NCBI GenBank assembly: GCA_030747075.1
Contig: JASLLL010000054.1
Location: forward strand, 1 to 5,596
DNA length: 5,596 nt
Origin: Gemmatimonadota bacterium
GTDB lineage: Bacteria; ARS69
Direction: 5' to 3'
The notes beneath the pieces were generated by a model that was given only the letters and a program-made list of their open reading frames with translations, was not told where the DNA came from and did no database searches. Of this stretch, positions 1-5,530 are shown piece by piece (position 1 is the stretch's first letter; every line of letters begins with the position of its first letter). The translations under genes were made by a program, and so were the position numbers.

Positions 1-2901
1 CTTCAGCGCGAAATAGCCCAACCCGAGTCTCATCCCAAATCCGTATCCGGCCACAAGGTCGTGCAGCGCGCCATCGGTGACTCCACGGTAGTGCCGACTC
101 CACGCGCTTCCAACATCCGCGAACAACGCCCCGTGAATGCCCCCCAGTCCGATCCGGAGGGGCCATCCCATGCGAATCGACTCCACCAGAGGAAACCGAA
201 GTTCCAGATTCGTCAGAGCAACATGCCTTCCCGTTCGCTCCCCGTAATCCAGGCACCGCAGAGTCTCCGGGCCGCCGATGCGGAACACCTGCGGTGTCTC
301 TCCATCGCTGACGCCCCCCACGAGGCGTACGGCAAATACCGTACTCTCCCATGGGGAAAAGTACCGCCGCCAGTCGAGGATGCCCGTGGTAAAGCGCACA
401 TCTCCAACCGTATGATCCACGGACAGTCTGGCGCGCGTCCCGTGAAGGGGACCGTGAAACCCGTACACCACGGTGTCCGTCACCCAGGCCACCTCCGGCC
501 CGGCATACACAAGGACGCCTCCGTCCGTCTCCTCCGTCTCAAAGCTCCCGCCCGCCTGGAAACTCTGCGAAAAGACCCGACTACTGATGGTGCTGGCCTC
601 CACCCCCAGTTCGAGGCGACTGAACTTGGAGAACGGTCGTGAGAGAAACCCGTAGGCACCCCGGTAGATCTGGCTTTGGAACTCGATCCGATCAGGAGCG
701 GCAAACAAGCCAAAGTCGTTCCGGAACTGATAGAGGGTGACACCCCAGTTCGTGCGCTTCTTCAGGTTGTAGTAGCCGAGAAGAAGGTCCGAATCTTCGA
801 TCGACCCGTACACGGACACGCCTACCTGAATCGTGTGGTTGGACAGAATGTCGGAGAACGCAAGCCTCGCCTGCCCCGCAAACCCGACATTCGAAGCGAA
901 CACCGGAGACGCCGCGACGATGTCCGGCGACCAGCGAAGTCGATACGGTTCTACACGAAGGCTGTCCAGCGGCGGGAGAGTGTGAAGTGTCTCGTCGCGC
1001 ACCGTCAGCACGCTCCACTCTTCCGAAGTGGCATCACCTGCCGATGGAAGCTCCGGACCGAACTGATCCGCGACCTCATTGCGCGGAGGAACCTGCGATG
1101 GCAGAGGAGTGAACAGTGGCTCCGGGTCAGGGGGAGGCACTGCCCCCAACGGAGTCATCTTCGAGAGCGGTTCTTCCATGGCAAAGAGATCCCACCCGCG
1201 TCCCTGAAAACAGGTGAACACCAGACGCTGACCATCCGGCGACCAGGAAAACGACGGGCTCGATTCGATCAGGCCGGTGACGCCGGTCCGGAGCCGGGTC
1301 AGACGATAGAGTCGTCCTGTGCCCCGCTCCTGAATGTACAGGTCAGAGACACCGTCCCGGTCGGACACGAAGGCCAGCGTCTTCCCCTCGGGACCCCATT
1401 GCGGGCAGATGTTCTTGCCTGACTGCCCCGGAAGAAGCTCGATCCTCCCCGTGGCCGGATCGAGAAGAGCAATCCGCGGGAAATCGAACACCAGGTGTTC
1501 CACATCGGTGCGGCCTCCCCGGTCCGTAACGAACGCGATCCGATCTCCCCGGGGCGACCACTGGGGATCCCGCGCCAGGTAGGGATCGTCGGTGAGAGGG
1601 GTGGTCTCCAGTGTGTCCAGGTTCACTTCGTAGAGATCCGACTTCCCGTTGCGAACCCCGGAGAACACGATGCGCTTTCCGGAGGGATGAAACGACGGAG
1701 AGTGCAGTGCGTCCAGGCCGGGGGCGATCGTCCGGGTGACTTTCCCCGACTCCACATCCAGAAGAACCAGCACATCCTGACCGCCGCGCTTCGACGGGAA
1801 GGCGATGGTCCGGCCATCGGGAGACCATCCAAGTGATGTGTAGAAGTAACGGAGCGACTCGAAGTCCGACGATCTCTCCCCCTCCACAAGCCGCCGGATG
1901 TCCTGCCCATCCAGCGCCGACGCCAGCATGATGTCCTTTGAGAAACGGCCATCCCGGATGTATACGAGCCGCTCGCCGTCGGGTGAGATCGACGGGGCAA
2001 GGCGGATTCCGTATTCTCTGTCGCTCCCGCTCAACCGACGCGCAGCGGTCTCCGCCCTGTCGAGGCGAGTCACTTCCGGATAGTACTCCCGCCGAACCGC
2101 GTCCTCCCACTCCCGTGTCAGCGTGGAAAGGCCCACGCCCAGCGTTTCCCGAAACCCCTTCTCGACCGACCGGTAGAAGATCGTCTTGCGAAGGAGCTCA
2201 CCAATCTTCTCGTCACCGAATCGCTCCCCGAGGAATGCGAATACGGCCTGCCCAATCCGATAGACTCGAATGTCGGACACGCGCTCGAGCGCATCAAGAG
2301 GCACCAGCAACCCTTCCAGCGCGGTCCAGCGCAGCCACATCGCGGTATGGGGGTCCACCTCCCCACGAGCCAGATACTCGGCCATCCCCTCCATGAACCA
2401 GAGCGGAGGCTGGAAGGAAAACGGCGTCGCATCCCCGGCGGGATCGCCAAAGAGAAGATCGATCTGGAACGCATGGACCAGTTCGTGCGTCAGAACATGG
2501 TCGAACTCTCCGTATGATCCGGTAAACGGAAGAAACACCCGGCGTTTGCGGAACTCAGTGATTCCCCCGACGCCTTCCGGAATGAGTCCGGGAGTAATGT
2601 TCGTCTGCTGAAAGTCGGAGTGCGAGGCATAAACGATGACGGGGATTCGCTCGACTACATCATGCCGGAGGATTCTCGACAGTCGTACATACGCACGCTC
2701 CGCCATCCGCGCCGCCGCATGAGCGGACTCCTCCTCGCCTTCGTAGAAGTAGATGTCGAAGTGTTCGGTCGGAATGACGCTCCAGTGGAAGTCCCGGTAG
2801 ACCACCTTGTTCTTCCCGAACTGAGCCGAAGCGCCCGATGCGCCGACTAGCAGAAGGGCCCCGGCCACGAGGAGCGCTCGCGAAGAAGACGACCTCCTCA
2901 C
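1..2901 (-). CDS. Secreted metallopeptidase (MA-like) – PD40/TolB propeller – Omp85-like outer membrane barrel fusion protein, 3'-partial
   Basis: The frame is open for 967 codons from a GTG at 2901 to the window edge with no stop. Residues 1-26 are a signal peptide (MRRSSSSR, a hydrophobic stretch, then cleavage predicted after ASA). Residues 27 to about 265 resemble peptidase MA/gluzincin metalloproteases: H139-E-L-V-H143 gives two zinc ligands and the catalytic Glu140, and the following WFMEGMAEY (168-176) supplies a third ligand, probably Glu171. Six PD40/TolB-like blades are marked by SPDG-type turns near 306, 360, 406, 449, 504 and 554. A proline-rich linker (588-607) follows. From about 645 to 967 there are alternating aromatic/glycine beta strands, with FRIGGPETLR (873-882) and ELRFPL (900-905) matching the end of Omp85/BamA-type barrels. 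The last residues resemble a late strand, so perhaps 20-40 residues are missing. A periplasmic or surface protease anchored in the outer membrane is inferred; its substrate is unknown. The GTG start is chosen because it overlaps the upstream stop and yields a complete signal peptide. Confidence 0.9.
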   Translation of the reverse strand, partial: MRRSSSSRALLVAGALLLVGASGASAQFGKNKVVYRDFHWSVIPTEHFDIYFYEGEEESAHAAARMAERAYVRLSRILRHDVVERIPVIVYASHSDFQQTNITPGLIPEGVGGITEFRKRRVFLPFTGSYGEFDHVLTHELVHAFQIDLLFGDPAGDATPFSFQPPLWFMEGMAEYLARGEVDPHTAMWLRWTALEGLLVPLDALERVSDIRVYRIGQAVFAFLGERFGDEKIGELLRKTIFYRSVEKGFRETLGVGLSTLTREWEDAVRREYYPEVTRLDRAETAARRLSGSDREYGIRLAPSISPDGERLVYIRDGRFSKDIMLASALDGQDIRRLVEGERSSDFESLRYFYTSLGWSPDGRTIAFPSKRGGQDVLVLLDVESGKVTRTIAPGLDALHSPSFHPSGKRIVFSGVRNGKSDLYEVNLDTLETTPLTDDPYLARDPQWSPRGDRIAFVTDRGGRTDVEHLVFDFPRIALLDPATGRIELLPGQSGKNICPQWGPEGKTLAFVSDRDGVSDLYIQERGTGRLYRLTRLRTGVTGLIESSPSFSWSPDGQRLVFTCFQGRGWDLFAMEEPLSKMTPLGAVPPPDPEPLFTPLPSQVPPRNEVADQFGPELPSAGDATSEEWSVLTVRDETLHTLPPLDSLRVEPYRLRWSPDIVAASPVFASNVGFAGQARLAFSDILSNHTIQVGVSVYGSIEDSDLLLGYYNLKKRTNWGVTLYQFRNDFGLFAAPDRIEFQSQIYRGAYGFLSRPFSKFSRLELGVEASTISSRVFSQSFQAGGSFETEETDGGVLVYAGPEVAWVTDTVVYGFHGPLHGTRARLSVDHTVGDVRFTTGILDWRRYFSPWESTVFAVRLVGGVSDGETPQVFRIGGPETLRCLDYGERTGRHVALTNLELRFPLVESIRMGWPLRIGLGGIHGALFADVGSAWSRHYRGVTDGALHDLVAGYGFGMRLGLGYFALK
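2898..2901 (-). promoter_or_regulatory. GTGA stop/start overlap coupling suhB-like gene to protease-barrel gene
   Basis: The suhB-like TGA (2900-2898) shares bases with the next gene's GTG (2901-2899). This 4-base overlap is typical of termination-reinitiation coupling. Just upstream of the GTG there is only a weak purine stretch (GGAA), while an AGGAGG sits immediately after the GTG as the Arg-Arg codons 2-3, too far from any later in-frame start to be its binding site. Reinitiation by ribosomes finishing the phosphatase is therefore the likely way this gene is translated. Confidence 0.75.
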
Positions 2902-3707
2902 GCCGATTCCAGACCGCCGGGCCTTCGCCCGTCAAGAAGCACTTCCCTCATTGCGGGAGCAATCCCTGTGGTGGACACGAGGAACTCGCTGCCGAAGACA
3001 TCCCAGTCAGCCCCTGCGAAGTCGGTGATTACGGCGCCAGCCTCGGAAGCAATCACCCCTCCCGCAGCGACATCCCACGGGTGAAGCCTCATCTCCCAGA
3101 ACCCGTCAAACCTCCCGCATCCGACATAGCACAGGTCGAGCGCCGCGCTTCCGAGTCTCCGAACCGCGCGCGCCTGTTTCACGAAGCTGGAGAAGTGATC
3201 GACATTGTTGGCGCTCGCCGTATGCACATCATAGGGAAAGCCCGTGACCAGAAGCGCTTCTGACAGGTCGGTCGCGGTCGACGCTTGAATCGGTCTTCCG
3301 TTCAGAAACGCACCCTGTCCACGCAACCCTGAGAAGGTCTCCCCCCGGCTCGGATCGTGGACCACCCCCGCCATCGGTACACCATCCTCCAGCACTCCGA
3401 TCGAGACCGCCCAGATGGGCAACCCATGCGCGAAGTTCGTGGTTCCGTCCAGCGGGTCCACCACCCACAGCCTGCCCGGAGCGTTCCGCCCTCCCCGCCC
3501 GCCGCCCTCTTCCGCCAGAATGGCATCTTCAGGGAAGTGCTCCTGAATCCGCTGGAGAATCAGGCGTTCCGACGCGCGGTCAGCATCGGTCACGAGGTCG
3601 ATCTTGCCCTTCTTCTCCACCGCAAACGGCCCCCCCACATACTGGAGGAGAAGTTCGCCTGCTTCCCGGGCGATCTCAAGCGCGACTTCCAGCAGTTCTC
3701 GACTCAT
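2898..3707 (-). CDS. suhB: Inositol monophosphatase family protein (SuhB-like)
   Basis: This 269-residue protein has the normal length for bacterial SuhB/IMPase, a Mg2+-dependent cytoplasmic phosphatase of myo-inositol phosphates and related sugar phosphates. The family motifs are all present: KIDLVTDAD (35-43), the metal-binding Glu pair at 66-67, WVVDPLDGTTNF (81-92) with metal ligands D84 and D87 and the L86 carbonyl, and HPWDVAAGG (209-217) with D212. Nothing looks missing, so it should be active. The ATG at 3707 is chosen because MSRELLEVALEIAREAGELL aligns with the usual family N-terminus. The frame stays open far upstream, but that part runs through the terminator and antisense to the previous gene. 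No clear Shine-Dalgarno precedes the ATG; the leader is pyrimidine-rich. The TGA stop overlaps the next gene's GTG. In E. coli SuhB also acts in rRNA antitermination; whether that holds here cannot be judged. Related activities such as fructose-1,6-bisphosphatase or histidinol-phosphatase are possible, so the symbol denotes family only. Confidence 0.92.
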   Translation of the reverse strand: MSRELLEVALEIAREAGELLLQYVGGPFAVEKKGKIDLVTDADRASERLILQRIQEHFPEDAILAEEGGGRGGRNAPGRLWVVDPLDGTTNFAHGLPIWAVSIGVLEDGVPMAGVVHDPSRGETFSGLRGQGAFLNGRPIQASTATDLSEALLVTGFPYDVHTASANNVDHFSSFVKQARAVRRLGSAALDLCYVGCGRFDGFWEMRLHPWDVAAGGVIASEAGAVITDFAGADWDVFGSEFLVSTTGIAPAMREVLLDGRRPGGLESA

Positions 3708-3805: not shown

Positions 3806-5530
3806 CTAGTTCAGCACCACAAGCTTCCGGGTCGCCGAGAAGTCCCCGGCCACCATCTTGTAGAAGTAGATGCCGCTGGAGACCTTCTCGTTGGAATCCG
3901 CACGCCCGTCCCAGGTCCGGGTGTAGGCATTCGGGTCCAGCGTCTCGTTGACCAGCGTACGCACCTTCTGACCGAGGATGTTGTAAACCTCGATCGTCAC
4001 ATGCTCCTTCGTGGGCACGCTGAACTTGATGTCCGTCGACTCGACGAACGGGTTCGGCGAGGACTGCGCAAGGTCGAACCCAAACGAGGTCACGACCGGC
4101 GCATCCGTACCACTGTTGGTACACGCCGCAGCCTCGAACACTTCCAGCCCGAAGTCGTTGACGAAGGTGTTCCGGAGGAAACAAGCCCGGTTATCCATCG
4201 TCAGGAAGGCCGAGATGTCAAAACCGCATGACACGGAGACCCCGGTCTTGCCAGGCAGAGTGTTCTTGGTGCACTTGATGACCGCCGCACGACCGTTGTC
4301 ACCCGCGCCACCATCGGCGTAGGTCATGACAATCTCGTTGGTCGTTGCAGCAGGCGGGGCGGACAGGTAGATCCGGTCGAAGTTCCGAACGATGGGGCAC
4401 TCCCCATACAGTCCGTACTTCATCCCTTCCTGCGAACTTCCGGCCACACCCTCAACATTCAGGATGCGCTCGTCGGTCCGGTCATCATTGGGATCTGTGA
4501 AGGACACACCCAGGTAGTCCACTGCGAACGCAGTGATCGAGTCGGCATCGCTGCCGCCGGTCCCCAGGTAGTAGAACAGGTTGTCCCCACAGATCAGGAG
4601 TTTCCCACCGTTCTCAAGGTAATTGCCCAGCTCGATGCGCGTGGTGTCAAACAGTGAGTAGGCATCAAAGCTACCCTGAAGCCAGATGAGGGCATCGTAG
4701 TAAGGATCCCCGACGGTGGTCATGTATCCGCCCGAGGTAGTATTCGGGCTGCCCACGGGCTCGTTCTGGATGTTGGAGCCTGCGCCCATGACATCGTACT
4801 TGTCATACTGCAGGCCCAGCGCATCCATTGCGAGTTCGACCATGTCCTCGGAACTGTCATACACCGGACTGTCGAAAGTTCCCTGGCCGGAACCGCCAGA
4901 GGGACTCCAGTCGGTGGAGTTCTCAAAGTCAAGGAAGCTCCGACCGAAGTCATCCACAATCAGATACTTCTGAAAGTTCTGGAGGTCATCCGTGTTGTCA
5001 AACGGAAGGACCGAGAACTCGAAGTAGCCAGGCTCAGCAGGATCGCTGGCTGCCGCGGGGAAGGTGGTGACATTGGCAAGGTCATCCGTAGCCGCCAGGT
5101 AATACTCGACCGTGGTGCCCACCACCCATTGGTTGTAGGTGAGGGGGTCTGTGTCGTTCCCCTCGATGATGGCCCGGTAAGTTCCCTCGTCAGAATAGGA
5201 GGTCGCATCCCGCTGACCGAGGTCCATCGTGATGGAAGCCCATGCGGACATGGGATCGTCTCCGCCGTTGTCATGGCGCCACCACAGGAGGACATTGCCC
5301 TCAGTAATCCCATCCATATCGTGGACATCCACGCTCAGCGAGTCATACGGGTCAAACTCGCGGATGTTGCCCGGATAGGTCCCCCCGATCCACATGTTCT
5401 GCTCCGAATTGGTCAGGAACGAGGTATGGGCAGGGTCTCCAAAGGCAAATGTGTCATCAAAGATATCAATACCGCGCGCCTCAAAGACCGTCGAGGTGGC
5501 GGAAAAGCTACCGAAAGACACATTGTCCAC
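3806..5530 (-). CDS. Secreted multidomain protein with GATase-like segment and C-terminal FlgD-Ig/type IX-style sorting domain (N-terminus missing or interrupted)
   Basis: The 574 codons open from a GTG at 5530. Residues 1 to about 90 are beta-rich, and about 90-177 look Ig-like, ending in VEYYLAATDDLANVTTFP, a pattern common in secreted proteins of FCB bacteria. Residues 187-345 resemble a Rossmann/glutamine-amidotransferase-like fold: YLIVDDFG (189-196), YDALIWLQG (278-286), and YLENGGKLLICGDNLFYYLG (304-323). I see no convincing catalytic triad, so a structural or binding role is likely. Residues about 481-574 are a FlgD-Ig/type IX-like C-terminal domain: LAQSSPNPF, IEVYNILGQKVRTLV, TWDGR, SSGIYFYKM and the end KLVVLN. 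Six cysteines (315, 378, 420, 435, 450, 470) suit an exported protein. The GTG start gives no signal peptide, although the C-terminus implies export, so the true N-terminus is probably upstream beyond the in-frame TAG. The protein could be the C-terminal part of a larger secreted peptidase or adhesin; the catalytic part, if any, is outside the window. Confidence 0.85.
   Translation of the reverse strand: MDNVSFGSFSATSTVFEARGIDIFDDTFAFGDPAHTSFLTNSEQNMWIGGTYPGNIREFDPYDSLSVDVHDMDGITEGNVLLWWRHDNGGDDPMSAWASITMDLGQRDATSYSDEGTYRAIIEGNDTDPLTYNQWVVGTTVEYYLAATDDLANVTTFPAAASDPAEPGYFEFSVLPFDNTDDLQNFQKYLIVDDFGRSFLDFENSTDWSPSGGSGQGTFDSPVYDSSEDMVELAMDALGLQYDKYDVMGAGSNIQNEPVGSPNTTSGGYMTTVGDPYYDALIWLQGSFDAYSLFDTTRIELGNYLENGGKLLICGDNLFYYLGTGGSDADSITAFAVDYLGVSFTDPNDDRTDERILNVEGVAGSSQEGMKYGLYGECPIVRNFDRIYLSAPPAATTNEIVMTYADGGAGDNGRAAVIKCTKNTLPGKTGVSVSCGFDISAFLTMDNRACFLRNTFVNDFGLEVFEAAACTNSGTDAPVVTSFGFDLAQSSPNPFVESTDIKFSVPTKEHVTIEVYNILGQKVRTLVNETLDPNAYTRTWDGRADSNEKVSSGIYFYKMVAGDFSATRKLVVLN

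Follow-up and report, generated by a model that had tools for sequence, protein, structure and literature searches.

An Omp85-type barrel fused to a TolB-like propeller and a predicted zinc peptidase in Gemmatimonadota and other bacterial phyla

Results

The window, the whole 5,596-nucleotide stretch of Gemmatimonadota DNA that was analysed, forms the start of contig C54. On its minus strand, a single open frame of 967 amino acids runs from position 2901 to position 1 without a stop codon, and leaves the end of the contig there. Since the window sits at the contig start, the gene was truncated by the assembly and not by evolution. Alignment showed that complete homologues extend 25–26 residues past the frame and end in a terminal aromatic residue, and the view that the gene is complete within the window therefore had to be given up. 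Judging from these homologues, the missing part is only about 25 residues long and holds the region of the last strand and a C-terminal Phe. A terminal aromatic residue typically marks proteins that the BAM machinery folds.

The GTG start codon at position 2901 overlaps the stop codon of the upstream gene as GTGA. This translationally abutting gene (2898–3698, minus strand) encodes an inositol monophosphatase (SuhB-like; PF00459, E = 1e-73). A further gene upstream, at 3806–5530 on the minus strand, codes for a large protein that ends in a type IX secretion sorting domain; it has an in-frame stop just ahead of its GTG, with coding-like sequence past that stop, so that it may have another start or be interrupted. 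SprA is present in the genome of the window, and a type IX secretion system (T9SS) is therefore likely to be present as well.

The 967-residue protein starts with a signal peptide (residues 1–27; 2821–2901, minus strand) of the Sec type without a lipobox. It reads MRRSSSSRALLVAGALLLVGASGASA, and the mature protein follows with QFGKNK. The signal peptides of homologues mostly end in AQ(Y), after which comes FG(K/Q)NK. Within the conserved mature N-terminus FGKNKVVY (residues 28–35; 2797–2820, minus strand), Gly 29, Asn 31 and Tyr 35 are invariant in 77 homologues.

The first module of the mature protein is a gluzincin (peptidase MA) zinc peptidase domain (residues about 28–290; 2032–2820, minus strand), assigned from matches to Peptidase_MA_2 in homologues and from a predicted fold like that of M9 peptidases. 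In the window sequence alone, the domain stayed below the Pfam cut-offs (BSP, 1e-3; M9, 1.5e-3; Peptidase_MA_2, 0.2). Among 27 aligned family members, 22 matched Peptidase_MA_2, with a best value of 1e-15, and 12 matched the model of M9 collagenase. A search of the PDB with the family profile found the Vibrio collagenase, with its zinc motifs HEYVH, WWSEGVAEY and YRWG aligned to those of the family. The zinc-binding and catalytic motif HELVH (residues 139–143; 2473–2487, minus strand) is followed by WFMEGMAEY (residues 168–176; 2374–2400, minus strand), which aligns with the collagenase WWSEGVAEY and in which Trp 168, Glu 171 and Gly 172 are invariant; Glu 171 is the presumed third zinc ligand. 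Further downstream, YRIG (residues 214–217; 2251–2262, minus strand) aligns with the collagenase YRWG. Here Tyr 214 and Gly 217 are invariant, and Tyr 214 is a candidate for the transition-state tyrosine.

Folded alone, the peptidase domain was predicted with a pLDDT of 86.8. The model superimposed on M9 collagenase peptidase domains with a Z score of 17.4 (3.7 Å, 233 of 264 residues), and more weakly on M1 aminopeptidases (Z 13–14). Of the hallmarks of a peptidase MA gluzincin, HExxH with a downstream Glu ligand, the family profile in homologues and the fold were found. The first-pass annotation had read an HELVH metalloprotease with a downstream WFMEGMAEY from the letters alone, and the motif invariance, the profile matches and the M9-like fold bore it out.

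The second module is a six-bladed β-propeller of the TolB/PD40 type (residues about 299–584; 1150–2007, minus strand). Pfam detected six PD40 stretches in the window protein above threshold (E = 1e-30), and the propeller model matched TolB structures with a Z score of 28.5 and an rmsd of 2.0 Å over 244 residues (Foldseek, VIA-align), as expected from the six PD40 blades noted earlier. A linker rich in Ala, Pro, Ser, Glu and Asp follows (residues about 585–657; 931–1149, minus strand). Its middle part was modelled with low confidence, residues 592–625 having a pLDDT under 50 and being disordered, and its length varies among homologues from 22 to 148 amino acids.

The third module is an Omp85/BamA-type barrel (residues 658–967; 1–930, minus strand). 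Pfam placed Omp85 (PF01103) at residues 711–962 above the cut-off (E = 4e-7), the sequence profile of the barrel matched BamA structures, and the barrel model did so with Z scores of about 20–21 over about 275 residues (Foldseek, VIA-align). A barrel beyond residue 645 had been anticipated, and one is present in the model, where it begins at residue 658, after the disordered linker, and not at 645. The first-pass annotation had also expected 16 strands in one model. An Omp85/BamA barrel was indeed predicted, of which DSSP analysis of the AlphaFold2 model found 14 complete strands and the start of strand 15 within the window; the homologues imply a barrel of 16 strands, with the remainder supplied by the missing C-terminus.

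As in Omp85 proteins, a long loop L6 joins strands 11 and 12 of the model. The L6 motif of the Omp85 superfamily, (V/L)RG(F/Y), is found there as GGPETLRC (residues 876–883; 253–276, minus strand), where homologues have GG...LRG. Arg 882 is invariant and Gly 883 nearly so in homologues, and Asp 843, outside the motif, is also invariant. At residue 883 (253–255), the window carries Cys (LRCLDY) in place of the near-constant Gly of the homologues (LRG-Y), a single-residue difference that is possibly real or possibly an assembly error. Neither Pfam nor NCBIfam gave a POTRA match in the window protein; this excludes only the BamA, TamA and TpsB groups, since Omp85 subfamilies without POTRA domains exist.

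For the full 967-residue chain, AlphaFold2, with an input alignment of 77 rows, gave a mean pLDDT of 88.5 and a pTM of 0.88. Such a pTM would be hard to reach with a freely floating barrel, which suggests that a defined arrangement of the domains is predicted. With its gluzincin site intact, its six blades and its Omp85/BamA barrel, the protein therefore agrees with the three-module, outer-membrane-anchored architecture proposed from the sequence.

We then asked how widely this architecture occurs. The genomes were scanned with a closer set of homologues, as an alignment of 20 sequences proved too diverse to serve as the query. The same three-module order was found in a single frame at 80 loci in named genomes, belonging to Eisenbacteria, Gemmatimonadota, Zixibacteria, KSB1, Marinimicrobia, Calditrichota, Latescibacterota, Fermentibacteria, Elusimicrobia, TA06 and other lineages. 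The uninterrupted frame with its signal peptide and the conserved order of modules in homologues thus stood, as did the supposition that similar fusions exist in FCB and Gemmatimonadota genomes, since the order occurs across Gemmatimonadota and FCB-type phyla. A chance fusion or frame artefact was considered and ruled out, since the 80 loci share the order in frames of about 1,000 amino acids throughout. Together with the confident fold prediction, the 80 single-frame loci place the three-module order far beyond chance.

The scan that yielded the 77 homologues selected them partly on the HEL motif, and the 20 homologues fetched by overall similarity are for this reason important. His 139, Glu 140, His 143 and Glu 171 were invariant in all 77 motif-found and in all 20 unselected homologues. 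In the latter, with identities down to 22%, Trp 168, Gly 172, Tyr 214 and Gly 217 were invariant too. Among the three modules, conservation is highest in the peptidase (0.58; the other two score 0.54 and 0.48), and it is lowest in the linker and barrel. On the evidence of these alignments, the protease site seems to be intact throughout the three-part family, which is apparently catalytic.

At E < 1e-40, the peptidase profile was matched in about 117 genomes, roughly a third of the 386 bacterial genomes in the sample, which is weighted by the choice of relatives and is no census. All 53 genomes from the phylum to which G049 belongs (KSB1-like, judged by its best matches) were positive, with one to seven copies each, as were all five from the window's own phylum. 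To look for propeller–barrel proteins lacking the peptidase, we used a profile built from the propeller end and the barrel. Its strong matches lay almost exclusively in frames of 917–1382 amino acids; the barrel therefore appears hardly ever to occur without room for the peptidase. Matches in shorter frames (for example in G200, G297, G202, G300, G158, G082 and G105) often lay on high-numbered contigs of fragmented assemblies. Three very distant homologues (L022, L031 and L020; 22–24% identity) keep HExxH and the EG motif, and L022 and L031 are without the FGKNK start. The sequences of these last two suggest that the profile used captures less than the full age and breadth of the architecture.

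The genome of the window holds a second three-module copy (contig C15, 54578–57409; L033), which is 35% identical to the window protein, with an intact HELVH and the motif PLWFAEGLAEY. Genomes G002 and G004, of the same family, have also kept a second copy, and the duplication therefore looks old. The same genome encodes a BamA with POTRA repeats on contig C26 and, beside Pal on contig C6, a TolB candidate that scores 304 bits, below the cut-off of 343. The window protein itself reached 138 bits against this NCBIfam TolB equivalog (cut-off 343). That it might be the cell's own BamA or TolB was rejected, as these have separate genes in the genome; given the BamA gene and the TolB–Pal locus, the window protein is additional to both. 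Two more Omp85 barrels were noted in this genome, on contig C49 (4142–4996, in a 630-residue frame) and contig C14 (27269–27931, in a 569-residue frame).

Among the downstream neighbours of the family (61 genes scanned), we found 16 SPOR-domain, nine GWxTD, seven MlaE and five DsbD genes, and upstream neighbours across the loci included ribosome-silencing factor and EPSP-synthase-family (MurA-like) genes. A neighbour common to all of the 80 loci was sought and none was found, gene contexts following lineage. Since the neighbours are lineage-specific, genome context names no substrate.

Discussion

The three-module architecture of this protein is firm. Its function, with periplasmic orientation, proteolytic activity and substrate class, we infer. 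The reading that we favour, and to which we would give an even chance, is that of an outer-membrane-anchored, periplasm-facing endopeptidase for the quality control or maturation of envelope proteins, in a role comparable to that of BepA. The BamA-like, 16-stranded barrel would anchor this single-chain machine in the outer membrane, and its two soluble domains, a propeller like TolB or BamB and a zinc endopeptidase like collagenase, would face the periplasm. The propeller would dock partners or substrates, and the peptidase would act, close to the membrane, on proteins of the outer membrane or periplasm.

Strand 1 of an Omp85 protein starts on the periplasmic edge, and N-terminal domains are therefore periplasmic unless they are exported. 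In the model of the window protein, an even strand count and an N-terminal linker that enters at strand 1 would thus leave the propeller and peptidase in the periplasm by default. The favoured reading is further supported by the peptidase being the best conserved module with invariant active-site residues, by core-like conservation in the two phyla where every genome was positive (53/53 and 5/5), and by the envelope-type gene neighbours, which fit a role in the envelope. The confident full-length model, the fold matches to TolB, BamA and M9 collagenase, the terminal aromatic residue of complete homologues, the matches in roughly a third of the sampled genomes, the periplasmic enzyme of PlpD (PMC11116518) and the action of BepA on the BAM complex (PMC8423444) point the same way. 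What speaks against it is the long flexible linker, which could thread a passenger through the barrel, and the lineage-specific gene contexts, which point to no substrate. Given the T9SS in its own genome, a role of the window protein tied to secreted proteins is possible.

In a different reading, the propeller and peptidase would be exported in the manner of an autotransporter, either by the barrel itself or by BAM acting on it, and the protein would serve as a surface protease in nutrient acquisition or external protein degradation. The order of passenger, flexible linker and C-terminal barrel resembles type V proteins, the 22–148 residues of the linker are long enough to cross a barrel, and the closest solved folds of the peptidase are secreted collagenases. 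We nevertheless consider export improbable, as compact, quickly folding domains make poor autotransporter passengers, the closest precedent, PlpD, holds its enzyme domain in the periplasm (PMC11116518), and universal presence in one phylum fits housekeeping better than a niche exoenzyme.

The protein could instead be a factor for outer-membrane protein assembly, a BamA–BamB-like fusion of the kind put forward for WD40-Omp85 (Heinz & Lithgow, 2014), in which the peptidase would mainly bind or trim substrates during insertion. A BamA-type barrel with the L6 motif, the invariant Arg 882 and Asp 843, and the TolB/BamB-like propeller all suit such a factor. POTRA domains are absent, however, a complete BamA is encoded in the same genome, and a pure scaffold would not require a strictly invariant catalytic site, so that we judge this reading unlikely. 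Similarly doubtful is a self-contained outer-membrane machine for assembly and triage, in which one polypeptide would unite an insertase barrel like that of BamA, a docking propeller like BamB or TolB and a protease like BepA; if it were true, substrates would be inserted or degraded at the same site, and many FCB-type phyla would have this as a core function of their envelope. We think it very unlikely that the protein regulates or processes a single dedicated substrate (such as a component of envelope lipid transport, division or type IX secretion) and does not serve general quality control, because no neighbour is common across phyla. In favour of such a role are the MlaE, SPOR and DsbD neighbours, SprA and the T9SS of the window's genome, and the finding of several paralogues per genome, which suggests specialisation.

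The favoured reading, an outer-membrane-anchored zinc protease, would replace the vague label of a WD40-Omp85 or BamA–BamB fusion by a concrete and testable one. What is known of outer-membrane quality control comes mostly from Proteobacteria, and the family is a candidate for this function in many other diderm phyla. Its interest lies in being a widespread, phylum-wide and apparently catalytic outer-membrane family from little-studied bacterial phyla.

BamA, the core of the BAM complex, is a general insertase of outer-membrane proteins with a POTRA array and a barrel, whereas the window protein has no POTRA domain. TolB shares the six-bladed propeller fold (Z 28.5), but is a soluble protein with an N-terminal domain of its own and sits in the tol-pal operon. 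The M9 bacterial collagenases share the fold of the peptidase domain and the zinc-site motifs; they are secreted and carry an activator domain and collagen-binding modules, all of which are absent from the window protein, where the peptidase begins right after the signal peptide. In role, the nearest likeness is to BepA. This zinc protease binds the BAM complex through its TPR domain and can either promote LptD or degrade it (PMC8423444). Both proteins would be zinc endopeptidases on the periplasmic side of the outer membrane that use a repeat domain to bind partners, but BepA combines an M48 peptidase with TPRs and has no barrel anchor of its own.

PlpD, the prototype of type Vd, likewise joins an N-terminal enzyme to an Omp85 barrel, and is the one protein of this design that has been studied closely. 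It was long believed to export this enzyme; surface export is now disputed, and its patatin domain stays periplasmic (Hanson et al., 2024; PMC11116518). PlpD differs from the window protein in being a homodimeric lipase with one POTRA domain and no propeller, and neither the patatin passenger nor the POTRA domain of a type Vd autotransporter was found by Pfam in the window protein. The analogy to type Vd autotransporters drawn in the first-pass annotation is therefore weak, as the enzyme of PlpD remains in the periplasm and the strand and loop pattern seen here would by default put the N-terminal domains there too.

Ten Omp85 subfamilies were described in 2014 (Heinz & Lithgow, 2014; PMC4104836). 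One of them, the Metallo subfamily, is said to have an N-terminal metalloprotease and is defined by PF00149 (PMC4104836). The Pfam name of PF00149 is Metallophos. This is a phosphoesterase family and not an HExxH protease, so that the Metallo group is unrelated to the window protein. Its metalloprotease label appears to be a mistake, and we flag this published subfamily as resting on a phosphoesterase domain.

The closest relative among the ten is WD40-Omp85, which has a TolB-like propeller and was proposed to be a fusion of BamA and BamB (PMC4104836). With its sister subfamilies, it was still listed as poorly characterised in 2024 (PMC11116518). The 2014 text on WD40-Omp85 names the propeller alone, with no mention of a peptidase (PMC4104836), perhaps because in many members the domain does not reach the Pfam cut-offs. 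None of the papers found in the open-access literature mentions a peptidase in WD40-Omp85, and none describes this architecture experimentally. The window protein shares with WD40-Omp85 the Omp85 barrel, the N-terminal TolB-like propeller and the absence of POTRA domains, and differs from the propeller-only description in the 2014 text by an intact gluzincin ahead of the propeller. We have filed it as a WD40-Omp85 variant with an intact protease; if all WD40-Omp85 members of 2014 hold the peptidase, it would amount to the re-annotation of a known subfamily and not to a variant.
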